Below, piece after piece: positions 258 to 46,020 of a stretch of DNA of 46,023 nt. Both the position numbers and the translations under genes were made by a program. The stretch is from Myxococcales bacterium. GTDB lineage: Bacteria > Myxococcota > Myxococcia > Myxococcales > JAJYLH01. The stretch spans positions 1 through 46,023 of the forward strand of contig JAJYLH010000047.1 of assembly GCA_021787845.1 (NCBI GenBank). The letters run 5' to 3'. The notes under the pieces are model-generated. The model had not been told where the DNA came from, did not search any database, and was given only the letters and a program-made list of their open reading frames with translations. Position 1 is the first letter of the stretch; each line of letters begins with the position of its first letter.

Positions 258-986
258 CTAGAACGCGTAGCGGGCGCCGGCGACGAGAGCGAACCGGGGG
301 CCGTTGGTGAAGAGCATCGCGCGTCCGCCGAGGTCGAGGGCGAGGTCCAGCCGGCGCGTGGCCAGCTCGATGCCCGGCGCGACCACCACTCCCGGGCGCC
401 AGACGCTTTCGCCGACCGCGGTGCTCGAGTACGAGAACGCCGGCCCGGCGGCGACGGTCCAGAAGAGGTCCTGCGTCAGCGCTCCGCGGATCGCCGGGCC
501 GAGGGCGCCCGTGATTTCGCTGGACGCCGGATAGGTGCCCGACGGCCCGAGCGTCCAGCCGTCGAAGAGCGCGGCGAGCGACCACCGGCTGTCGGCGAAC
601 CGCAGAGCCGCGGAAAGCTCCATCGACGGCGACGCCCGCCCGGGCGCGACGGCGGCGACGACCCCGGCGTTCACCGCGACGGACGGAGAAAGAGGAGACG
701 CCTCGGCCCGGGCCGGCGCCGCCATAAGAAATAAGGACAAGAGAAAGAGGAGAAGGACCGGCGCGGAACGGGCGGCCTCACGGTCCGCTGCCGCGCGCGT
801 CTCGTCAGCGGAACCATCGCCGACCCGACGACCGATCGGACCGATCGGACCGATCCGACCGATCGGACCGATCGGACGTCGGCGTGGCTCAGCGACGGAC
901 CCGGCCGGTCGTCGGCGATGCCGCGGCAGTTGGAAGCGCGCGTTGCCCGGCACTTCCTTGCGCGCTGCTTCGGTCCTCACCGCCAT
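258..986 (-). CDS. Outer-membrane beta-barrel-like protein (GltH/NfsH-like position)
   Basis: A protein of 242 residues, last gene of the minus-strand Glt-like operon. A hydrophobic stretch (about residues 76-93, VLLLFLLSLFLMAAPARA) ends in an Ala-x-Ala cleavage site. The mature part is rich in alternating hydrophobic/small residues and ends in Phe (GARYAF), as outer-membrane barrels do. The ATG at 986 lies 6 bp after the upstream stop and follows GAGGGAG, so translation is probably coupled. Using this start puts about 75 residues before the signal peptide, including PIG-type tripeptides encoded by the 9-bp array at 832-876. No other standard start with a good ribosome site was seen nearer the signal. 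Its role as the H-like barrel rests on gene order and the barrel-like sequence; the family was not confirmed by search. Confidence 0.7.
   Translation of the reverse strand: MAVRTEAARKEVPGNARFQLPRHRRRPAGSVAEPRRRPIGPIGRIGPIGPIGRRVGDGSADETRAAADREAARSAPVLLLFLLSLFLMAAPARAEASPLSPSVAVNAGVVAAVAPGRASPSMELSAALRFADSRWSLAALFDGWTLGPSGTYPASSEITGALGPAIRGALTQDLFWTVAAGPAFSYSSTAVGESVWRPGVVVAPGIELATRRLDLALDLGGRAMLFTNGPRFALVAGARYAF
832..876. repeat. 9-bp array, copy 1 (five units)
   Basis: Five 9-bp units in the order CCGATCGGA, CCGATCGGA, CCGATCCGA, CCGATCGGA, CCGATCGGA. The central unit is the variant. It lies within the 5' end of the H-like barrel gene, between the upstream stop and the signal peptide, and on the minus strand is read as PIG/RIG tripeptides. 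Confidence 0.9.
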
Positions 987-992
987 GCTCCC

Positions 993-2738
993 TCAATTCA
1001 CCGGCTTGAACAGGAACGGATACGTCACGACGACGACGCCGCCGCCGCGCGGCTTGGGGAAAGTCCAGGTCCGCACCTTCGAGACGATGCATCGGCCGAC
1101 CTCGGGGTCGGGGAGCGTCGAGCGCATCGCGCGGGCGGTGGTGACGCGCCCGTCGGCGCCGATGACGAACTGGATTTTCACCTTGCCGGCGAGGTTCGGG
1201 GTGGCGGAGAGCTGCTTTTCGTAGCAGTAGCGGATTTCGATGCGGTGGCTGAGGATCACCCGCCGAATCACCTCGCGGTCGAGGCCGCCCTGGACGCTCG
1301 CCGGCTCGTCGATGCCGAGGCTCGTCGCGCGCCCGCGCCCCAACCGTCCGACGGCGCCGGCTCCCGCGACCCCGAGCGCTCCCACCGGCCCGACGCCGAC
1401 CGTGTTCGCGCTCAAGCCGCCGCCTCCGCGACCGAGACCGCGCAAGCCCAGGCCCAGCGTCCCCCGGGCGTCGCCGATCGACGTGCCGTCGAGGTGCCCG
1501 ACCGCGCTCGCCGCGGACAGCGCGCCGCCGGAGAAGAGCTGTGCCGTCGCCTTCCCCGAGAGCGCTCGCAGGAGCGCGTGCTCGCGCACGATTTCCGCAG
1601 CGGTCTTCGGTCCGGCGCGACGGCGGTTCCGATCGGGCGCGTTCGGCCGTCCGGCCGCGCCTTCCTCCGCCTCGGCGCGCGCGCGACCGGTCCGCGCGGC
1701 CTTCGCGAGCTTCTCCCGCCAGCGCTCGAGCTCGCGTTTCTTCGCCGGGCTCGCCGGCGGCACGAATTGCGCGAGCTGCTCCGCCACGGTCGGCGCGTTC
1801 GCCTCCTCGATGCCGTTCGGCGGCGGGTCGAGCAGCACGCCCAGAAGCAGAGCGAGGATCATCGCGAAGACGATCGCGCCTTGCCCTTCGCGGGTCGTCC
1901 ACCAGGCGGGCTTCGGCAGCTTGACGAGCGCGTGGCCGTCGGTGCGGGAGAGCTCGATGGCGAGATCGCCGGCGGAGAGCTTCACGCTCGCGCCCGGCGG
2001 CAGCGGCGCCCAGAGCTTGCCCGCGAGCTGATGCCGGCTGAGGCGCGGCCCGTCGGTACGCGCCGCCAGCGTCAGGAGCGGTCGTCCCTCCGCGCTCGAT
2101 TCGATGGCCCGCAGCGGCGCATCGAGCGCGACGTGCCAGACGCCCGAGAGGCACGCGGCCGCAATCCAGGAACCGTTCGCGCCGGGCGCATCCAACGGCA
2201 GCCGGAAGACCGACTCGCGCCGATCGCCGACCGTCAACAGCTCGCCCGGCGCCAGCACCCGCGCATCGAGCCGCGCGCCGCGCCAGGTGAGCGCCGCCAT
2301 CAGCGGACGCTCCCGGCTCGCGAGCCCGCCCGGGTCTGCGCCCGCGCCGTCGTCGTCCGGCCCTTCGGAATCGCTCTCGCTCACCGCGAGCCCAGCCGGC
2401 GGACGTGCCGGCGCGCCGGGCGCGTCCGCAATCGATCCGCCGGCCGCGTCGAGGACGATTTCGTACGAGCCGACGCGCACCCGGTCGCCCGCGCCGACGA
2501 GCGCGCGCACCACGGGCTTGCCGTTGACCTCGACGCCTTCCTTCGCGAGCGCAATCAGCCGGTAGCGCCCGTTGCCGATCGGATCCAGCACGACATGGAC
2601 GGGAAGGAGCGCTCCGTCGCCGAGCGGCAGCGTCGCCCCCGAGAACGAGCCGATGCTGACCGGCCATTCGGCGGCGGCGCACGAGCCGGCCGGCTGATGA
2701 TCCCGTTCCACGCGAACGACGAGCCCCGCTGGTCGCAT
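993..2738 (-). CDS. gltG: FHA / TonB-C (AgmX/PglI) envelope protein, GltG-like
   Basis: A 581-residue inner-membrane protein. The N-terminal ~90 residues look like an FHA-type domain (GSFSG...VHVVLD...VNGK). A middle region is followed by one membrane helix (about 280-300, IVFAMILALLLGVLL), a basic/Ala-rich and then Gly-rich periplasmic linker, and a C-terminal TonB-like domain of the AgmX/PglI type (about 485-581) with RYCYEKQL, GKVKIQFVI and VRTWTFPKP. This FHA-TM-TonBC architecture is that of GltG, which links the cytoplasmic motor side of the Myxococcus gliding machine to the periplasm; NfsG is the sporulation paralogue. The start at 2738 is chosen because GGGAGGGGG precedes that ATG; an upstream TTG at 2759 would add seven residues. 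It sits 52 bp after the F-like gene and 6 bp before the H-like gene. The motor genes (AglQRS) are not in the window. Confidence 0.85.
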   Translation of the reverse strand: MRPAGLVVRVERDHQPAGSCAAAEWPVSIGSFSGATLPLGDGALLPVHVVLDPIGNGRYRLIALAKEGVEVNGKPVVRALVGAGDRVRVGSYEIVLDAAGGSIADAPGAPARPPAGLAVSESDSEGPDDDGAGADPGGLASRERPLMAALTWRGARLDARVLAPGELLTVGDRRESVFRLPLDAPGANGSWIAAACLSGVWHVALDAPLRAIESSAEGRPLLTLAARTDGPRLSRHQLAGKLWAPLPPGASVKLSAGDLAIELSRTDGHALVKLPKPAWWTTREGQGAIVFAMILALLLGVLLDPPPNGIEEANAPTVAEQLAQFVPPASPAKKRELERWREKLAKAARTGRARAEAEEGAAGRPNAPDRNRRRAGPKTAAEIVREHALLRALSGKATAQLFSGGALSAASAVGHLDGTSIGDARGTLGLGLRGLGRGGGGLSANTVGVGPVGALGVAGAGAVGRLGRGRATSLGIDEPASVQGGLDREVIRRVILSHRIEIRYCYEKQLSATPNLAGKVKIQFVIGADGRVTTARAMRSTLPDPEVGRCIVSKVRTWTFPKPRGGGVVVVTYPFLFKPVN

Positions 2739-2790
2739 TGCCCCCTCCCGACGCGCCAAGGGCCGTGCCTGGTCGAGCGCGGATGGCCTT

Positions 2791-3231
2791 TCAGCGCTCC
2801 TTCACGGCGTTCGCCGCGTTCAAGAGGTCCTGTCGTGACGCGCGCGCGAAGGACTTGGGCGGCTTGACGAGGCTCGGCAGATGGAGCCGCGGCCGCGCCG
2901 AGAACAAGTCCTCGTCCGGCCGCATCAGCGTCCCTTCGATGGTGTCGCCGCCGAAATGCACGACGGTCCGCTTCGGCGCGTCGCGCGCGCGCGGCCTCGC
3001 GACGGCGGGAGCGGCGAAGAGGAGCATGGCGACCAGCAAACCGGGCAGGACTGGCCAGCGCGCCGGTCCGATGCCGCGCTCGCGCTCGGTTTCGCCGATC
3101 GGACCGATCGGACCGATCCGACCGATCGGTCTGATCGGCGTCAGCGGGTCACGGTGCCAGGCCCCCGCTGCCGAGGGCGCGGTGGCGGGGGGGGAGGCCG
3201 CGCCGATTCCGCGCGAGCGCGTCGTCGTCAT
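2791..3231 (-). CDS. Small membrane/secreted protein, GltF/CglF-like position
   Basis: A protein of 146 residues. Its ATG overlaps the stop of the giant TPR gene (ATGA, 4 bp), implying translational coupling. Residues 30-46 contain PIG/RIG tripeptides encoded by the 9-bp array at 3095-3138. A hydrophobic segment follows (about 60-78, VLPGLLVAMLLFAAPAVA), ending like a signal peptide. The conserved-looking mature part is only about 65 residues (FGGDTIEGTLMRPDEDLF, then LVKPPKSF). If the array had not been read through, the gene would probably start close to the signal, but no clear ATG with a ribosome site is there. Its position between the E-like end of the TPR protein and GltG matches gltF/nfsF; the assignment is positional. 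Confidence 0.7.
   Translation of the reverse strand: MTTTRSRGIGAASPPATAPSAAGAWHRDPLTPIRPIGRIGPIGPIGETERERGIGPARWPVLPGLLVAMLLFAAPAVARPRARDAPKRTVVHFGGDTIEGTLMRPDEDLFSARPRLHLPSLVKPPKSFARASRQDLLNAANAVKER
3095..3138. repeat. 9-bp array, copy 2 (five units)
   Basis: The units are CCGATCGGA twice, CCGATCCGA (centre), CCGATCGGT and CTGATCGG. The left arm (first 17 bp) and right arm (last 17 bp) pair completely if one G-U wobble is allowed, leaving a loop of about 10 nt. It is in frame in the N-terminus of the F-like gene. Confidence 0.9.
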
Positions 3232-6200
3232 CTTCCGCCTCCGGTCTTCGCGAGCGCCTGGCACGCCGCGAACGCGGCCTGGTACCTCGCGGCGTCGGGC
3301 GCCCGGCCGCCGTGCGAGGTGAACGTCTCGAGCGACTGGAAACCCTCGCTCGGCTTGCCCGCGTCGGCGCAGAGCAGGAGCCCCAAGTCGAGCGACGCGT
3401 CGAGCCGCCCCGGCGCTCGCGCAAGCACCGCGCGCAAGAGCTTCTCCGCCGCCTCCGGCTGGCCCAACGCGCGCTCGGTCACCGCGAGGTCGACGGCGAC
3501 GTCGGAATCGTCCGGGCTCGCCGCGTGGAGCGCGCTCAGCTCCGCCTCGGCGCCCGCGAAGTCGCGCAGGGCGAGCAACCGATCCGCGAGCACCCGGTGC
3601 GCGAGCGGCCGCGCCGGATACGCCCGCGCCAGCGCGAACCACGCCGCCGTCGCCTCGTCGTGCTTTCCCAGAGCGTCGAGCGCGCGCGCCTCGACCTCCG
3701 CGGCGTTGGCGTAGAGCGGGTCCGCGCGATCGATCTTCCCCGCGACGAGCAGCGCCGCTGCCGGCCGGCCCTCCGCCAGGAACGACTCGGCCGCGATGAG
3801 CCACGCGTCCGGCGCGTCCGGCGCTCGCGCGAGAATCGCCTCGGCCCCGACCGCAGGCGCGCGCACCGGCGGCGCGAGCTTCACCTCCGAGTCCGCACGC
3901 TGGCCGTAGAGCTCCGGCCGAAGCCGCGCGAGGGTCGGCAGCGCCGCCCGTACGCAGGCGGGCTCGACTCCGGCATCGCGCGCGCGGGCAAACGCCGCCT
4001 GGAGCGTCGTCACCGCCCGGTCGTCGAGCGGCTGCGCCTTCTTCGCGAGCGCGTCCTCGAAGATCGTCCGCTCGGCGCGCGTGTACCCGCGAGGCGCGCG
4101 AACGTTGGAGAGCGCCTGCGCGAAGTTCGCGTAGAGGAGCCCCGACTGCACGAGCGCGCACGCCGCCGGCGCCGCCCGGCCACGCTGGACGACCCGCGCG
4201 AGCTGGCGATCGGCCCGCGCGAGGAGCGCGAGCTTCCTCGGAATCGTGCGCTGGTACGGCGGACGCAACGGCGCCTTCGCGTACGCCTCGACGAGCGGCT
4301 TCACGAGGAGCAGCGCGGCGTCGGCGGAGGCGTCGAGCGCGGCGCCGTCGTCCTTCCCCACCTTGCGCGAGAGCCACGCCGCCTCGGCCGCGTGCCGCTT
4401 CGCCGACGCCGAGCGGCAGCGGTCCTCGACCCTCGCGAGCCGGTCGAGCAGGCGCGCCCGGTCCGCGAGCGTGCGCGCGAAGCCCAGCGCCTTCGTCCAC
4501 GCGCGCTCCCGCCCCCAACAACCGCCGCGGGCGTGCTCGGCGAGCTGCATCGCGTGCGCCGTCGCGTCCGCGCCCCAGCGGTGCTCGCGCAGATACTTCT
4601 CGCGCAGCGCGTCCGCCTCAGTCCGCCGGCCCGCCGCCTCGGCGAAGACGATGGCGTCGTGAAGCCGCGCCGTCTCTTCCCGCCCCTTCGCCTTCTCTGC
4701 CAGCGCCAAGGCGAGCCGCTCGGCTTGCGCGAACCGTCCCAGGAGGACGAGGTCGTCGAGTTGCCGCTGCCGCGCCCGCCGAACGAGGGGGCTCCTGGGG
4801 AGCTCGGCGAGAAGACGCGCCCGCACAAGGACCGCGCGATCGAGCTCGCCCGCCCGCGTCAGCGCCGCCGCCGCGTTGAACAGCGCCAGGTCGAGCTTCG
4901 GGCTCCGCGGAAAAGCGCGCGCGAAGGCGAGGTAGCGCGCCGCTGCCAGCGCGTCGTCGTCGTGAGCGGTCGCCTGCTCGGCGTTCGCGAGCAGCGCGGC
5001 CTGCCGGGTGCGGTCCAGCTCCTCGCTCATCGCCGCGGCGAGCTTCGGCTGCGCCTCGAACCGCGCCGCCAGCTTCGCGAGGTCGGCGTAGCGCTGCCGC
5101 TGGCGCAGGGAATCGAGCGCGAGGCGCGCCGCGAAGGTCGCCGTCGGGTCCGCCGGATGGTCGAGCGCCAGCGCCGACAACGCCGGGAACGCCTCCGCGA
5201 AACGACGGTGCCGGTAGAAGACCAGCGCGCGCTGATACGCAACCTGGACCGCGTCCGGACCGTGCGGGAGCGCTCTCAGGTAGCGGTCGCACGCGCCGAC
5301 GAAGACCGCTTCGGGAGCCGCCAGCGGAGTTGGGTTCGCAGACGCCGCCAACGTCCGATCGGACCGATCGGTCGGATCGGACTGATCGGTCTTCTCGCGC
5401 ACGGCACGGGGCGCGGCATGGCGCGCGCGGTTTCGGGTCGCGAGCCGAACGGGATGCCGAACCGGAAGCCCCTCCGCTCCGCCAGCGGCAGGGCGGGCCG
5501 AGCTCGCCGCCTGCATCGCGTCCTGAGCGGCGAAGACCGCGCCGTGCGCACTGTCGGCGAGCCACTTGCCGGGCTTCCGGTGGTGCGCGAGCCGGGCCAG
5601 ATCGATCGCCACCGCGGCGGTGTACTGCCGCTCCGCCTCGGCGGGCCGGTGGAGCGACATCAAGAGCTCGCCCGCATGATGGTGGAGGTCGTACGCGTCG
5701 GGGTAGGAATCGAACGCGCGAAAATACGCGCGGTAGAGCGAGAGCGCTGCCCGAAGCCGCGCCGGGTCGTTCGCCGCGCGCCCCTCGCCGTGGATGGTCA
5801 CCGCTGCGACGCGCAACGCGAGCTCGCCGGCGTCCCGCACCGCCTTCGGCACGTGGCCGAGGACTTCGCAAGTGTCCGCGAGCCGCGTCGCGACGCGCAC
5901 GAGCGTCGGCAGGTCCCGCCGCCGGGTCGCGATTTGCAGCTCGGTCGTGAGGATGCCCGCCAGGTCCGCCGCCTTCGCTCCCGGCTCCAACGACGCGAGC
6001 AGCGACGCCGCTTCCGGGTCGCGACCGGCGCCGGAGATCAGCCGCGCGTACGCCTCGAGGTAGCGGCGCCCGCGGTCGCCCGACGCGAGCTCACCGATGC
6101 GCGCGCGAGCCGTCGACGCCGGCACCGAACCGTCGCGCGCGAGCGCGAGCACCAGGTCGCGGCGCGCCTCCTCGCCCAGCGCCAGCGCCTTGCCGCCCTT

Positions 6201-7955
6201 CTCCGCGCCCAGCGCGATCACCTCGGCGAAGAGCGACCGCGCCGCGGCGTACTCCTCGAGATTCAGGTCGCACCAGGCGAGCTTGAAGCTCGCGTATGCC
6301 CGGGCGCCCGCGTCACGCGCATGCGCGCGCGCGAACTGGTAGTCGCGCACGGCGAGGGCGAGACGGTTCGCGTCGAACGCGTCGTCGCCGAGCGCCGTCG
6401 CCGCGCTGACCGCCAGCGGATCGTTCGGCCACTTCGCGACGAGCTCGGTGAGCGGCTGCGCCGCCGCCTCCATCCGCTTACGGGAGCGCCGCAGGTCTCC
6501 CAGCTCGAAGAGCAGCTCCGGTTGGCGCGCTGTCGAGGCGAGCGGCAGCGCTTTCGTAAACGCCGCGTCCGCCGCGTCGAGCCGCGCGTCGATTCGCGCA
6601 TCGCCCGCGTCGTCGCCGCCGTCCGCCTGGCGCAACCGCTCCGCGGCCGACCGGTTCCACGCCCCGAGCCGCAGGAGCGCTTCCGCTTGGTCGTCCCCGC
6701 GCGTCGTGCTCACCAGCTCCTGCAGCGTCGCGCCCTCGGCGGCGAAGAGCCGGGCAACGGCGGCCGCGTTCGCCGATGTCAACCGCACTTGATCGGACCG
6801 ATCGGACCGATCCGACCGATCGGTCCGATCGGCGATGGCGTGCGGCCGGGAAGAGCGCGTCGCCGCCGTCGTCTCCGGGCAGGCGTTCCCGGCGGCGTAG
6901 CGGTAGGTCCCGAGCTCGTCGCGCCAGTAGGTGCCGTCGAAGCTCCAGGCGACCTGGTCGTCGGAAAGCGGCGGCAGCTTCGGCGGGCGCGGCTCGGCGA
7001 TCGTGTAGCCGGCGCCGAGGAGCTTCCGCTCCGAGCGCAGCGACTCGTAGCGCACGTCGAGGGCGCGTTCGGTCAGCCCGCGCGCCGCCTCGCGCTCGCC
7101 GGCGTAGGCATGCATCAGCAGCTTCGCCCCGAGCTCGGCGATCTGCGCGCGCCAGGCTTGCCCCGCCAGGCTCGCCGGCCGGTCCGCGAGCGCCGCCGAC
7201 ACGCGCCCGACGAGCGGCGACGCGAACGCGCGCGCTCCCGCGCTCCCCGCCGGCGGCGTTGCCGCATCGATGGCCTGGAGCGCAGCGGTCTCGGTCAGCG
7301 GCGGCGGTATCGGCCTCACGAGCGGCGCGACGAGGCCCCGCGCTTCCCGATAGCGACACTTCGAGAGCAGCACCGTCGCTTCCAGAAGCCGCGCCTCCGC
7401 CTCGTCCTCGGCCGGGAAGTACGGCGCCGAAAGAGACACCGTCGCGCCCAGGGCCTCGCTCTTCTCGCCGAGAACGAGCAGCGCCCACGCCCGCTCCCGC
7501 AGCGCTTCCGGCCACAGCGGCGAGTCCTTCGTCACCCGCGCGTAGCTCGCCGCGGCGCGAGCCATCTCGTCGTGGGCGTAGCTCTGCCGCGCGGCCTCCA
7601 ACGATTGAAGCGTGCCGTTCGATCGCGGCGTCGCGGCGCGCAGCTCGCCCAGGACTTCGGCTTCGGTCCCGCTCGGCACGGCGAGAACGCCCGCGAGAAT
7701 CGGCAGCGCCCGATCGAGCGCCCACGCCCGACGCGCGTTCGCCGGAAGCTCGGCCAGATGCGCGCCGATGTCCTGGTCGAGCGCCGGAGGCACCGTCGGC
7801 CACGGGAGCGCCGCCGCCTGGGCGAGCAACTCCGTCTTCGCCGCGCCCTGCGCGTGTCCGGCAGCGCTGTCGAGCTCCAGCGCGCGCGCAAACGGCCCCG
7901 GCGCCGCCCGCGCGGCAAGCGGCACCGTCAAAACGATCGCCAGGAGCGCGCGCAT
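3228..7955 (-). CDS. Giant TPR protein, apparent GltC-GltD-GltE composite
   Basis: A secreted protein of 1575 residues, with signal peptide MRALLAIVLTVPLAARA and helical TPR-like repeats throughout. Residues 1-372 resemble GltC, ending in a VAWSFDGTYWRDELGTYRY block. Residues about 374-389 are the [13 protein letters not shown] peptide encoded by the 9-bp array at 6789-6832. About 390-1390 look like the long TPR protein GltD/AgmU, with a second array-encoded linker at about 855-867. The last ~180 residues are a TPR block like GltE (AglT). In Myxococcus these are separate proteins; here the frame is continuous. The E-like part has no lipobox of its own. The start ATG at 7955 overlaps the upstream stop (TGATG), and the stop overlaps the next ATG. 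The periplasmic scaffold role is inferred from the family. An assembly or frame artefact at the junction should be excluded. Confidence 0.8.
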   Translation of the reverse strand: MRALLAIVLTVPLAARAAPGPFARALELDSAAGHAQGAAKTELLAQAAALPWPTVPPALDQDIGAHLAELPANARRAWALDRALPILAGVLAVPSGTEAEVLGELRAATPRSNGTLQSLEAARQSYAHDEMARAAASYARVTKDSPLWPEALRERAWALLVLGEKSEALGATVSLSAPYFPAEDEAEARLLEATVLLSKCRYREARGLVAPLVRPIPPPLTETAALQAIDAATPPAGSAGARAFASPLVGRVSAALADRPASLAGQAWRAQIAELGAKLLMHAYAGEREAARGLTERALDVRYESLRSERKLLGAGYTIAEPRPPKLPPLSDDQVAWSFDGTYWRDELGTYRYAAGNACPETTAATRSSRPHAIADRTDRSDRSDRSDQVRLTSANAAAVARLFAAEGATLQELVSTTRGDDQAEALLRLGAWNRSAAERLRQADGGDDAGDARIDARLDAADAAFTKALPLASTARQPELLFELGDLRRSRKRMEAAAQPLTELVAKWPNDPLAVSAATALGDDAFDANRLALAVRDYQFARAHARDAGARAYASFKLAWCDLNLEEYAAARSLFAEVIALGAEKGGKALALGEEARRDLVLALARDGSVPASTARARIGELASGDRGRRYLEAYARLISGAGRDPEAASLLASLEPGAKAADLAGILTTELQIATRRRDLPTLVRVATRLADTCEVLGHVPKAVRDAGELALRVAAVTIHGEGRAANDPARLRAALSLYRAYFRAFDSYPDAYDLHHHAGELLMSLHRPAEAERQYTAAVAIDLARLAHHRKPGKWLADSAHGAVFAAQDAMQAASSARPAAGGAEGLPVRHPVRLATRNRARHAAPRAVREKTDQSDPTDRSDRTLAASANPTPLAAPEAVFVGACDRYLRALPHGPDAVQVAYQRALVFYRHRRFAEAFPALSALALDHPADPTATFAARLALDSLRQRQRYADLAKLAARFEAQPKLAAAMSEELDRTRQAALLANAEQATAHDDDALAAARYLAFARAFPRSPKLDLALFNAAAALTRAGELDRAVLVRARLLAELPRSPLVRRARQRQLDDLVLLGRFAQAERLALALAEKAKGREETARLHDAIVFAEAAGRRTEADALREKYLREHRWGADATAHAMQLAEHARGGCWGRERAWTKALGFARTLADRARLLDRLARVEDRCRSASAKRHAAEAAWLSRKVGKDDGAALDASADAALLLVKPLVEAYAKAPLRPPYQRTIPRKLALLARADRQLARVVQRGRAAPAACALVQSGLLYANFAQALSNVRAPRGYTRAERTIFEDALAKKAQPLDDRAVTTLQAAFARARDAGVEPACVRAALPTLARLRPELYGQRADSEVKLAPPVRAPAVGAEAILARAPDAPDAWLIAAESFLAEGRPAAALLVAGKIDRADPLYANAAEVEARALDALGKHDEATAAWFALARAYPARPLAHRVLADRLLALRDFAGAEAELSALHAASPDDSDVAVDLAVTERALGQPEAAEKLLRAVLARAPGRLDASLDLGLLLCADAGKPSEGFQSLETFTSHGGRAPDAARYQAAFAACQALAKTGGGR
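5354..5389. repeat. 9-bp array, copy 3 (four units)
   Basis: The units on the plus strand are TCCGATCGG, ACCGATCGG, TCGGATCGG and ACTGATCGG. With flanking bases it forms an almost perfect 30-bp palindrome. It lies in frame in the D-like part of the giant TPR gene, encoding an Asp/Arg/Ser/Thr-rich linker. Confidence 0.9.
6789..6832. repeat. 9-bp array, copy 4 (five units), at the C/D junction
   Basis: The units are TTGATCGGA, CCGATCGGA, CCGATCCGA (centre), CCGATCGGT and CCGATCGG. The right arm carries T where the left arm carries A, so the two arms pair better than in copy 1, which looks compensatory. It is in frame in the TPR gene exactly where the GltC-like part ends and the GltD-like part begins. 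Confidence 0.9.
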
Positions 7956-8659
7956 CACCTTGTTCCCGGCGTCCAGCCGAGCGCGAGCCCGAGGAGAAGC
8001 TGTTGCTCGACGCCGGTCGAGCCGCGGATGGTCGTCGGGTAGACCAGGTCCGAGAGCTCGAGTCGGGCGGCAAGGCTCCTGCTCACCGACGCGCCGACGG
8101 CGACCAGCGCGCGCCCGCCCGCGGTCAAAGTCGAGCGCTCGTGCCCGTCGTTGACCTGCCAGTCGACCGCCGTCACGTCGAGGCCGCCCTCGAGCGTGAA
8201 GCGGACCGCCTCCAACCCCGCGACGCTGACCTTGCCGATGCCGCCGCGCAGGACGGCACCGAAGCCGCCGAGCCAGTCGAACCGGCCCGGCGCGGCGCGC
8301 AGTTGGGTCGCGGTCGGCGAGGTGCACGAGCTCGCTCGCGTGCAGACGTCGAATGCCGGCGCGGCAAAGGCGAAGGCGCGGCCGCCGAAGAGCTCGAGCG
8401 CGAAGGGACCGAGGCCCCGGCGGATGGAGCCGAGCAGCGCGACCTTGTCGAAGAAGGGATCGGCGAGGCCGGTGGCGAGCTCGAGCGAGAGGGACCACGT
8501 CGGCTCGCCGGGAGGCAGCGGCGCAATCGGTTGGGACAACGGAACCCGGCCGGACGGAGCGCTGACGGGTGCCGGGAGCACTTCCGCCGGGCGCAAGCTG
8601 GCCTCGGCCCGTGCCGCCAGCGGCGCCGCGACGAGGCTGGCGACGAGAAGCGCGCGCAT
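7955..8659 (-). CDS. Outer-membrane barrel protein, GltB/NfsB-like
   Basis: A protein of 234 residues with signal peptide MRALLVASLVAAPLAARA, nearly the same as that of the following TPR protein. The mature part alternates short polar and hydrophobic strands (LSLELATGLADPFFDKVALLG, LELFGG, GGLDVTAVDW, LLLGLALGWTPG) and contains two Cys in a short extracellular-looking loop (VCTRASSCTS). This fits a small beta-barrel of the GltA/GltB family. The ATG at 8659 overlaps the upstream stop (TGATG), and its own stop overlaps the ATG of the TPR gene in the same way. Adjacent A-like and B-like barrel genes ahead of a C-like TPR protein are the order seen in the glt and nfs loci. Barrel structure is inferred, not shown. 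Confidence 0.75.
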   Translation of the reverse strand: MRALLVASLVAAPLAARAEASLRPAEVLPAPVSAPSGRVPLSQPIAPLPPGEPTWSLSLELATGLADPFFDKVALLGSIRRGLGPFALELFGGRAFAFAAPAFDVCTRASSCTSPTATQLRAAPGRFDWLGGFGAVLRGGIGKVSVAGLEAVRFTLEGGLDVTAVDWQVNDGHERSTLTAGGRALVAVGASVSRSLAARLELSDLVYPTTIRGSTGVEQQLLLGLALGWTPGTR

Positions 8660-9321
8660 CACCAGCCTCCGAAGCGCAGCGGGAAGCCGACCTGGAAGCT
8701 CACGACCGTGTCGCGGCCGGGCACGAGGCGGCCGTCGATTTCGCGTTCGAGCGAGGCGCTGCGCCAGGCGAAAGCGGTCTCGAGGCCCCAGGCGGGCGAG
8801 AGGAAGAAACGGGCGCCGATGGCGGCGGCGAGCGCGAGCGTCGGGCCGGAATGGATGTCCTCGGTCGAGGTTTCGCCGCCGATGAGACCGCGCAGGACGA
8901 TCTCGAACGGCACCAGCCTCTTGCCGAAGGCAAGCTTCCCGTCGATGGCCGAGACTTCGGCGCCGGCGAGCAGCGCCCAACCGGAGCCGGTCTGGCGCAG
9001 CTCCGCTTTCAGCTCCCGCTGGGCGATGCGCGCCGCCTCGCTCGGCGTCTGGGTCCAGCCGCTCGCCTCGACCGTGAGGCCGACGAGCGCCCGCGGCCAC
9101 CAGACGACGCGCAAGCCCGCGCCGCCGCGGATGAGGAACGGATCGTTCAGCCCGTACCCGGCGAACGGTGACAGCTCCAGCGCTCCTGCCTTGTTCCAGC
9201 CCCGCCGCTGGACGGACTCGATGTAGTCGGCGCTGGAAGCGCGGGTCGGAGCGGCCACGGCGCTCGTCGCGACGAGGGCAAGACCGACCATCGCCGCCGT
9301 CCATCGAACGATTGCCGGCAC
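8659..9321 (-). CDS. Outer-membrane barrel protein, GltA/NfsA-like, first gene of the operon
   Basis: A protein of 220 residues from GTG at 9321, which follows GGAGGGGG by 3-4 nt; an ATG at 9291 would shorten it by 10. The signal peptide ends near ATSAVAAPTRA. The mature sequence has barrel-like strands (GALELSPFAGYGLNDPFLIRG, ALVGLTVEASGW, VPFEIVLRGLIGG, ALAAAIGARFFLS, WGLETAFAWRS) and ends with FPLRFGGW, an aromatic C-terminus typical of outer-membrane barrels. The region 9322-9423 is shared with the divergent CglC-like lipoprotein gene and should hold the promoters for both; no clear -35/-10 pair was recognised. Its place in the outer-membrane channel of a Glt/Nfs complex is inferred from order and fold. 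Confidence 0.75.
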   Translation of the reverse strand: MPAIVRWTAAMVGLALVATSAVAAPTRASSADYIESVQRRGWNKAGALELSPFAGYGLNDPFLIRGGAGLRVVWWPRALVGLTVEASGWTQTPSEAARIAQRELKAELRQTGSGWALLAGAEVSAIDGKLAFGKRLVPFEIVLRGLIGGETSTEDIHSGPTLALAAAIGARFFLSPAWGLETAFAWRSASLEREIDGRLVPGRDTVVSFQVGFPLRFGGW

Positions 9322-9423
9322 CGGCCCCCTCCGCGGTGTGAAGGTGATGTACGGCTCGGGCGCCCGCAACGCTTGGCGCCGGGCAGCCGCACGCCTAAAG
9401 CTCCTGGTCGGGGGGGAGGGCGA

Positions 9424-9843
9424 ATGATGCGGCGGCGCTGGCGGCGCGCATCTTCCATCGGCGGCGCGGCGCTGCTCGCGGCGGCGCTGGTGTCTGCGTG
9501 TGCGCAGACCGACCTCGGAACGCCGTGTCACCTGTTGCGCGCGAACAACACCGAGGCCTCGCCGATGCCGCAGCACGACGTGCTCCAGTCCGGCAGCGGC
9601 GAATGCGCTCAGTTCATCTGCGCCTCGTTCGACGGGGCGAGCCCGGTCTGCACCCGGCCCTGCGCGCACGAAGGCGATCCTTGCGAGAACGGGATGGTCT
9701 GCCGGGCGGCGCTCTTGACTCCGCAAGACCTCGCGCTGGCGCAGCAGCGGATGCAGGGGACCGACCTCGACCACAACGGCGTCGACGATTTCCAAGAGTG
9801 GGCGGCAGGGCTGACGGACAGCTTGTACTGCGCGCCGAAGTGA
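9424..9843 (+). CDS. cglC: Cysteine-rich lipoprotein, CglC/GltK-like
   Basis: A protein of 139 residues from the ATG at 9424, preceded by GGGGGGAGGG. A basic N-terminus (MMRRRWRR), a hydrophobic core and a lipobox-like LVSAC put the lipidated Cys near residue 24. The mature part has about nine Cys spaced like CglC (TDLGTPC, GECAQFIC, VCTRPC, CENGMVCR, LYC at the end) and a DLDHNGVDDFQEW segment that resembles a calcium-binding loop. CglC/GltK is an outer-membrane lipoprotein of the Myxococcus gliding machine encoded beside gltC-gltB-gltA, and here it lies divergent to the A-like barrel, which supports the call. Identification is by pattern and context only. Confidence 0.65.
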   Translation: MMRRRWRRASSIGGAALLAAALVSACAQTDLGTPCHLLRANNTEASPMPQHDVLQSGSGECAQFICASFDGASPVCTRPCAHEGDPCENGMVCRAALLTPQDLALAQQRMQGTDLDHNGVDDFQEWAAGLTDSLYCAPK

Positions 9844-9901
9844 GCCGAGGCGGGGATGTCACCGTGGGGTCGATCGGAATTCCCGGTCCGGGGCGCCTTC
9901 G

Positions 9902-9946
9902 ACGGATCGGTCGGATCGGACGGATCGGACCGATCGGTCGGATCGC
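9902..9946. repeat. 9-bp array, copy 5 (five units)
   Basis: The units on the plus strand are ACGGATCGG, TCGGATCGG, ACGGATCGG, ACCGATCGG and TCGGATCGC. It lies in the 153-bp gap between the CglC-like gene and the dipeptidase gene, both on the plus strand. Folding is weaker than in copies 2 and 4. Confidence 0.85.
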
Positions 9947-19620: not shown

Positions 19621-19663
19621 CCATCGGACCGATCCGACGGATCCGACCGATCGGTCCGATTGG
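19621..19663. repeat. 9-bp array, copy 6 (about five units)
   Basis: The units are CCATCGGA (one base short), CCGATCCGA, CGGATCCGA, CCGATCGGT and CCGATTGG. A perfect 11-bp stem TCGGACCGATC / GATCGGTCCGA is present. It lies between the TPR gene and the alpha/beta hydrolase gene, both on the plus strand. Confidence 0.85.
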
Positions 19664-27566: not shown

Positions 27567-27610
27567 CCGATCAGACCGATCGGTCGGATCCGACGGGTCG
27601 GTCCGATCCG
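27567..27610. repeat. 9-bp array, copy 7 (five units), between nusA and rnpM
   Basis: The units are CCGATCAGA, CCGATCGGT, CGGATCCGA, CGGGTCGGT and CCGATCCG, the most diverged of the eight copies. It is in the intergenic gap of the nusA operon, on the same strand as its flanking genes, and contains short hairpins such as GACCGATC/GATCGGTC. Confidence 0.8.
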
Positions 27611-31922: not shown

Positions 31923-32174
31923 GCGCACTCGACCATCGGCGACCCGCACTCGGGCATCGGCGGACCGCACTCGGGCATCGGCGGACCGCACTCGGGCATC
32001 GGCGGACCGCACTCGACCATCGGCGGACCGCACTCGACCATCGGCGGCGCGCACTCGGGCATCGGCGGCGCGCACTCGGGCATCGGCGGCGCGCACTCGG
32101 GCATCGGCGGCGCGCACTCGGGCATCGGCGGCGCGCACTCGGGCATCGGCGGACCGCACTCGGGCATCGGCGAG
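31923..32174. repeat. 21-bp minisatellite, 12 units
   Basis: Twelve exact-length 21-bp units (consensus GGCGGACCGCACTCGGGCATC in cyclic form) with three variant classes: CGACC in units 1, 5 and 6; CCGC in units 2-4 and 12; GCGC in units 7-11. The class order suggests local duplication. Units contain no stop codon in any frame, and the array is open with the lipoprotein gene downstream, reading as PHSGIGG heptads. It is more likely outside the mature protein because the lipoprotein signal begins at 32211. It fills most of the 422-bp gap between genes. Confidence 0.9.
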
Positions 32175-38130: not shown

Positions 38131-38183
38131 TCGATCGGACCGATCGGACCGACCGGACTGATCGGACCGATCGGTCTGATCGG
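38131..38183. repeat. 9-bp array, copy 8 (six units), between kdpA and kdpB
   Basis: The units are TCGATCGGA, CCGATCGGA, CCGACCGGA, CTGATCGGA, CCGATCGGT and CTGATCGG. Its length, 53 bp, is not a multiple of three. A GTG (38076) with a ribosome-site-like GAAAG upstream opens a frame (VSKSQPSAIAVV...) that runs into the array and ends at 38234, out of frame with kdpB. Confidence 0.85.
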
Positions 38184-45801: not shown

Positions 45802-46020
45802 GAGGACCTCGAGGCGTCTCCCGAGGACCTCGAAGCGCCTCCCGAGGACCTCCCGCAGCCTCCCGAGGACCTCGTGCAGCCTCCCGAGGACCTCCCGCAG
45901 CCTCCCGAGGACCTCGTGCAGCCTCCCGAGGACCTCCCGCAGCCTCCCGAGGACCTCCCGCAGCCTCCCGAGGACCTCCCGCAGCCTCCCGAGGACCTCC
46001 CGCAGCCTCCCGAGGACCTC
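45802..46020. repeat. 21-bp tandem repeat at the right edge
   Basis: Ten full units plus 9 bp (consensus GAGGACCTCCCGCAGCCTCCC) run to within three bases of the window end. Early units vary in the middle. Read on the minus strand in one frame it gives EVLGRLR heptads, a leucine-rich amphipathic pattern; on the plus strand it gives PPEDLPQ. The array has no stop codon in any frame. It may be the edge of a coding repeat gene that continues outside. Confidence 0.85.

Follow-up and report, generated by a model that had tools for sequence, protein, structure and literature searches.

Which of two surface machines does the gene cluster at positions 258-9843 of the window encode, the Glt gliding complex or the Nfs machine, and does it do so in an ancestral or a derived form? 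The window, by which we mean the whole stretch of DNA analysed, is the entire contig C10 (46,023 bp) of a Myxococcales draft genome (6.24 Mb in 153 contigs, 98% complete), and the original prediction had seen in its first 10 kb a Glt/Nfs-type envelope machine that might be either ancestral or specialised. The cluster is probably a divergent, condensed Glt (A-motility) gliding complex with an unlinked motor, in a lineage without close relatives among the genomes compared. We assign it to Glt because of the position of its GltD in phylogenetic analysis, the presence of a cglC/gltK gene, and the fact that the genome has an Nfs-type operon besides. Genome-wide statements below refer to family and protein searches and to about 300 kb of the genome's DNA.

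Affiliation and gene content of the cluster

Gene maps of about 45 related clusters fall into three kinds: Nfs-like A-H operons, Glt-like clusters and a third kind discussed below. In family f4, taken here as Myxococcaceae, the Nfs-like operon is contiguous as nfsA-H, and the Glt-like clusters run D-E-F-G-H, then a GltI of about 4100 aa, then a ZnR-GYF GltJ, as in M. xanthus. The order across 258-9843 corresponds to gltB-gltA-gltC/D/E-gltF-gltG-gltH plus cglC (= gltK) of Myxococcus, with one-to-one synteny to more than 30 related loci, the divergent cglC included. Together with the NCBIfam matches given below, this synteny bears out a Glt/Nfs-type machine with a merged A-H order.

The GltD tree (41 rows, 1020 columns) places the window in the Glt clade (support 100/99), with families f8 and f5 (100/100) and adjoining f8 (99/93). 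The approximately unbiased (AU) test rejects constrained placements both in the Nfs clade (p=0.0012) and in the other Glt subclade (p=0.013), and the GltG tree agrees weakly with the Glt placement (75/95). The branch of the window GltD is long (2.15 changes per site), so its exact sister is less certain than its clade. In this tree the window is nested among other families of the Glt clade, and we therefore reject the ancestral form that had been proposed, and the cluster appears to be derived. A specialised version, the other form envisaged, is possible in view of the long branch, the gene fusion and the GltI search described below.

An Nfs-type machine, in which AglRQS powers polysaccharide movement round the cell for spore-coat assembly, would also have A-H in one operon without its own motor and without GltI, GltJ and GltK, and the H protein of the window is slightly closer to the Nfs-type than to the Glt-type H profile. 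Nfs membership is nevertheless rejected by the AU test on GltD and by the presence of a CglC homologue, and another full A-H operon in the genome falls in the Nfs clade. This reading is therefore very unlikely. That operon, on C12, is complete and has two gltF copies, and its GltD and GltG both belong to the Nfs clade; a further gltG of that clade stands alone at C56:9.8 kb.

The Glt assignment thus concerns the following genes:

9424..9843, plus strand: cglC/gltK-like outer-membrane lipoprotein, divergent from the operon; lipobox-like LVSAC; NCBIfam CglC E 1.5e-7, 31.7 bits (cut-off 60)
8659..9291, minus strand: first outer-membrane beta-barrel, GltB by position; OMP_myx_plus E 1.2e-4; GTG at 9321 an alternative start
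7955..8659, minus strand: second outer-membrane beta-barrel, GltA by position; OMP_myx_plus E 6.6e-4; signal peptide; matches second barrels of Glt loci
3228..7955, minus strand: fused periplasmic tetratricopeptide repeat (TPR) protein, 1575 aa; signal peptide MRALLAIVLTVPLAARA; NCBIfam GltC E 3.6e-25; Pfam TPRs
2791..3231, minus strand: gltF/CglF-like small exported protein; NCBIfam CglF E 8.3e-7, 29 bits (cut-off 90)
993..2738, minus strand: gltG-like inner-membrane protein; NCBIfam GltG E 3.7e-73; myxo_SS_tail (AgmX/PglI) 115 bits, cut-off 40
258..986, minus strand: gltH-position exported small barrel-like protein, directly after gltG; signal peptide

All seven predicted frames, six on the minus strand and one divergent lipoprotein frame on the plus strand, are present at these coordinates. 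The divergent gene had been called CglC-like, which its family match upholds; it occupies the same place in about ten related Glt loci and in M. xanthus, where cglC (= gltK = MXAN_2538) is divergent to gltB-gltA-gltC (PMC4488436). This synteny identifies the first barrel as GltB and the second as GltA, so the two barrels stand as predicted but with their names reversed. For the first barrel the top matches (56-72 bits) are to the equally placed barrels of Glt loci in f8. For the barrels (OMP_myx_plus), the F protein (CglF) and the TPR protein (GltC), as for the GltG-like and CglC-like proteins, the family similarity is beyond chance.

The gltG-like protein has an FHA-like N-terminus (Pfam E 0.002, slightly under the cut-off), one transmembrane segment predicted near aa 290-308, and a TonB-like AgmX/PglI C-terminal domain. 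The H-like gene called in the original prediction agrees in position and signal peptide only: its protein has no family match in NCBIfam or Pfam, its C-terminus matches the Nfs-type H profile weakly (E 0.0015 at best), and structure prediction (pLDDT 31) gave no usable model. Coupling of all the genes had also been claimed. TGATG overlaps make it secure at the first two operon junctions only, and for F and H, with 9-bp tandem arrays in front of both signal peptides, the true start is uncertain.

The fused C-D-E protein and the 9-bp arrays

Iterated TPR profiles drifted to more than 100 genes and were dropped for C, D and E in favour of single-sequence best scores. In a domain-wise comparison, aa ~15-374 of the 1575-aa protein match the separate gltC genes of relatives and aa ~405-1383 their separate gltD genes. 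The tail (aa ~1380-1555) matches positions 196-367 of a profile built from 14 GltE proteins of Glt loci (E 3e-15, 45.6 bits, as against 23 bits for an Nfs-type GltE profile on the same tail), and this GltE profile has no significant match elsewhere in the protein, which lacks the N-terminal part and lipobox of GltE. From these matches the gene reads as gltC-gltD-gltE', with the C-terminal half of GltE, and its product is a three-way GltC-GltD-GltE fusion.

Partial fusions occur in relatives: family f8 has C-D fused in three loci of the Nfs clade (L067, L068, L072), and D-E are fused in Glt-clade loci of f8 genus g14 (L065, L066, L186-L188) and of one f6 genome (L083). None of the approximately 30 Glt-clade loci inspected has all three genes fused, and a literature search found no C-D-E fusion of this kind. 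A search of the order with a piece of GltD, taken in frame, had matches in 138 of the 145 genomes searched, and the loci inspected are a minority of these.

The fused gene also carries two of the genome-specific tandem (GACCGATCG)n arrays that are dispersed through the source genome, where 20 were counted in 300 kb of its DNA (in slightly overlapping stretches); under a stricter definition there are 12 in the same 300 kb and none in 665 kb of relatives. The 9-bp unit GACCGATCG is palindrome-forming and reads without a stop in each of the six frames. Coding sequence makes up 85% of the DNA, yet 17 of the 20 arrays lie entirely outside called genes, and two of the three intragenic ones sit in the fused gene. 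Those of the cluster, all without strand, are:

6786..6835: (GACCGATCG)n array at aa 375-388 of the fused protein, exactly at the C/D junction
5352..5397: array at aa 856-868, in the D part, in a stretch without counterpart in relatives
3087-3143: array ahead of the F signal peptide
824-880: array ahead of the H signal peptide

The second of these is close to the point where the GltD of a Myxococcota contig (L059) splits into two genes, and there is no array at the D/E junction. In a listing across the window these four are delimited as 6791-6832, 5353-5391, 3095-3138 and 830-877, and further 9-bp arrays lie at 9901-9945, 19623-19660, 27567-27610 and 38132-38183.

Two stop-free dispersed repeats within one frame, one of them exactly at the C/D junction, in a draft of 153 contigs, are what an assembly artefact could leave if separate gltC, gltD and gltE had been misjoined at such repeats. 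Against a misjoin, syntenic order is kept and the fusion gene lies within a single stop-free reading frame of 1823 codons, no array marks the D/E junction, the arrays are only about 45 bp each, and a copy-number error in a 9-bp unit leaves the frame unchanged; the partial C-D and D-E fusions in relatives also speak for a true gene. An artefact is accordingly highly improbable. As for the origin of the fusion, we infer that former spacers became linkers: spacers with stop-free arrays may have turned into in-frame linkers of a C-D-E rod, with dispersed intergenic repeats serving as the raw material of a gene fusion in an envelope motor. The outcome would be a gliding machine that works independently of GltI and transmits through one C-D-E chain. 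We offer this full scenario tentatively, as conceivable and well short of probable.

Repeats of other kinds were also seen in the window. A MITE-like inverted repeat (61-221), with CAGTAGGATGGRCAGTCC arms about 150 bp apart, lies at the contig end, and its arms were found again in two other stretches of the same genome (L024 and L021). Arrays of 21 bp lie at 31924-32172 (about 12 copies) and 45818-46020 (about 10 copies, up to the other contig end).

GltI, GltJ and the unlinked motor

GltI and GltJ had been described as absent. This is true of the locus, but the contig ends (window base 1) 257 bp behind the gltH-position gene, so the locus alone says little about their absence, and a GltJ-like protein is found elsewhere in the genome. 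GltI was sought with a 664-aa C-terminal query and positive controls in the source genome and 16 relatives. Eleven of the 16 match, eight of them strongly (families f2, f3, f4, f6, f7 and f9); the other three, two from f8 and one from f6 that has a divergent GltI, give only weak TPR matches. No match was obtained in the source genome, in G004 (f5), or in G007, G013, G018 and G029 (f8), nor did an N-terminal 1336-aa query match in the source genome; as the f6 genome with a divergent GltI matches just weakly, a very divergent copy could be missed by such a search. GltI is likewise unmatched, or matched only by weak TPR hits, in the f8 and f5 relatives whose tree placement is Glt, and so does not define the clade.

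The placement of a TIGR04552-family gene indicates what these relatives lack. In GltI-bearing loci it comes right after GltJ and in f8 loci right after H, so it is the GltI-GltJ block that is missing between H and this gene in f8. Such genes, at the downstream end of glt clusters, are a candidate unrecognised gliding gene:

L066:14846-15937, TIGR04552-family gene
L113:10444-11595, TIGR04552-family gene
L110:16170-17141, TIGR04552-family gene

A GltI-like giant frame directly follows H in L059, a contig of tentative placement, and for this reason loss of GltI in the group of f1, f5 and f8 seems likelier than primitive absence.

As for GltJ, a frame with ZnR and GYF-like domains is cut off by the end of contig C81 (L109:16705-17600; phmmer against GltJ E 4e-17), and a frame with the same AKRAEEERRAAALKAAEE repeat as the C81 part and with an AgmX/PglI-type tail stands at the start of C36 (L112:3-1457). 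These would be the halves of one GltJ-like gene, unlinked to glt and broken by the assembly at a coiled-coil repeat.

Might the cluster be a Glt descendant that has lost GltI and whose complex now serves to transport surface polymers or adhesins on cells that no longer glide? The want of a clear GltI in the source genome, in six f8 genomes and in the f5 genome would fit, as would the long branches, and such machines have been proposed to form a versatile transport class (Wartel et al., PMC3858216). However, Bdellovibrio glides without GltH, GltI, GltJ and GltK (Luciano et al., PMC3169522), and motor, roadblock protein and GltJ-like protein are all retained in the genome. We regard a non-gliding descendant as unlikely, if not to be dismissed lightly, and favour a gliding Glt complex.

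An unlinked motor had been suggested, and motor genes do exist apart from the cluster: contig C128 carries two AglRQS-type R-Q-S triads (each of one ExbB-like and two ExbD-like genes), at 137.7 and 194.9 kb; they are distinct from the TolQR-type loci, which lie on C73 and C118. An unlinked motor is nothing unusual, as aglRQS is unlinked to glt in M. xanthus too. All 18 genomes looked at contain a triad of the 137.7-kb type, whose f4 copy has R, Q and S of 245, 162 and 192 aa, against 245, 162 and 194 aa for M. xanthus AglR, AglQ and AglS. The R protein of the 137.7-kb triad itself groups with f5 and f8 (92/94), like the window GltD, and this triad is the candidate motor of the window machine. 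Types close to the 194.9-kb triad (L023:8911-10983) occur in nine of the 18 genomes and are missing from several with Glt clusters; it might be the motor of the third-type cluster. The latter is a Glt-like cluster at C56:212-229 kb (L019/L102), comprising C-D-E-F-G and a 225-aa gene, directly behind a 195-aa gene and the sole roadblock (MglB-type) gene found in the source genome. An f4 genome (L095, G054) has the same arrangement, with genes of 195 and 159 aa upstream.

Several points weigh against a Glt gliding complex. The branches are long and the divergence from known Glt is strong. Every NCBIfam Glt equivalog match is under its curated cut-off, so that no Glt match reaches that level, the AgmX/PglI tail domain of GltG alone being above its own (115 against 40 bits). 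The searches of the source genome, which might overlook a very divergent copy, revealed no GltI, a protein that is essential in M. xanthus. GltH is a candidate by position alone. The pairing of triads with clusters is one that we infer, and the 195-aa gene is a candidate MglA by neighbourhood and length.

Predicted working and comparison with known systems

By analogy with M. xanthus, AglRQS in the inner membrane would use the proton gradient to drive GltG, AglR-GltG contact having been seen there by two-hybrid (PMC3169522). The TonB-like periplasmic tail of GltG would engage the long rod of TPR proteins, which is here a single covalent C-D-E chain and would extend to the GltA/GltB barrels; in M. 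xanthus GltC binds both barrels directly and CglC aids their insertion (PMC4488436), a role that CglC may have here as well. The moving complex would push the cell along the surface, with MglA and MglB setting polarity. The fusion would fix C:D:E at 1:1:1 without separate assembly of GltC, GltD and GltE, would deprive the GltE part of its own lipid anchor, and would turn a large share of the connection between the two membranes into a covalent one. With GltI lost, cytoplasmic control may have changed, or the machine may have been diverted to transport other than gliding.

The fusion and the GltI-less family group are the interesting points of what is a variant of a known machine. As a compact natural design it shows which gliding parts can be fused covalently, with C, D and E then bound to share one compartment and to follow one another, in this order, along a single chain, and it marks GltI as a part that a whole family group seems to do without. 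Both points constrain models of force transfer from AglRQS and GltG to the outer-membrane barrels.

The Nfs system (nfsA-H; Wartel et al. 2013, PMC3858216) is likewise a single A-H cluster without motor, GltI or GltJ, but it belongs to the other clade, has no GltK/CglC counterpart, and is represented in the source genome by the operon on C12. The expanded core complex of Bdellovibrio (Bd0828-0838, PMC3169522), compared here by description and not by sequence, is a Glt-like set without GltI and GltJ, as in the window, but also without GltH and GltK. The Glt system of M. xanthus (gltA-K, aglRQS; Luciano et al. 2011, PMC3169522) shares with the window, which falls among Glt in the GltD tree, the divergent cglC, the two barrels, C-D-E, F, G, the H position and an unlinked aglRQS; it is organised in two clusters, whereas the window has one, with C/D/E fused, the GltJ-like gene unlinked, no GltI found and the sequence strongly diverged. 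The f8/f5 Glt loci (L065, L066, L069, L070, L073 and L090) differ in their separate C gene, in a GltD only ~32% identical to that of the window, and in the TIGR04552 gene after H, which here would lie beyond the contig end. They are nonetheless the nearest in the GltD tree, and like the window they have the same gene order, no clear GltI, a divergent cglC and, in genus g14, a D-E fusion.

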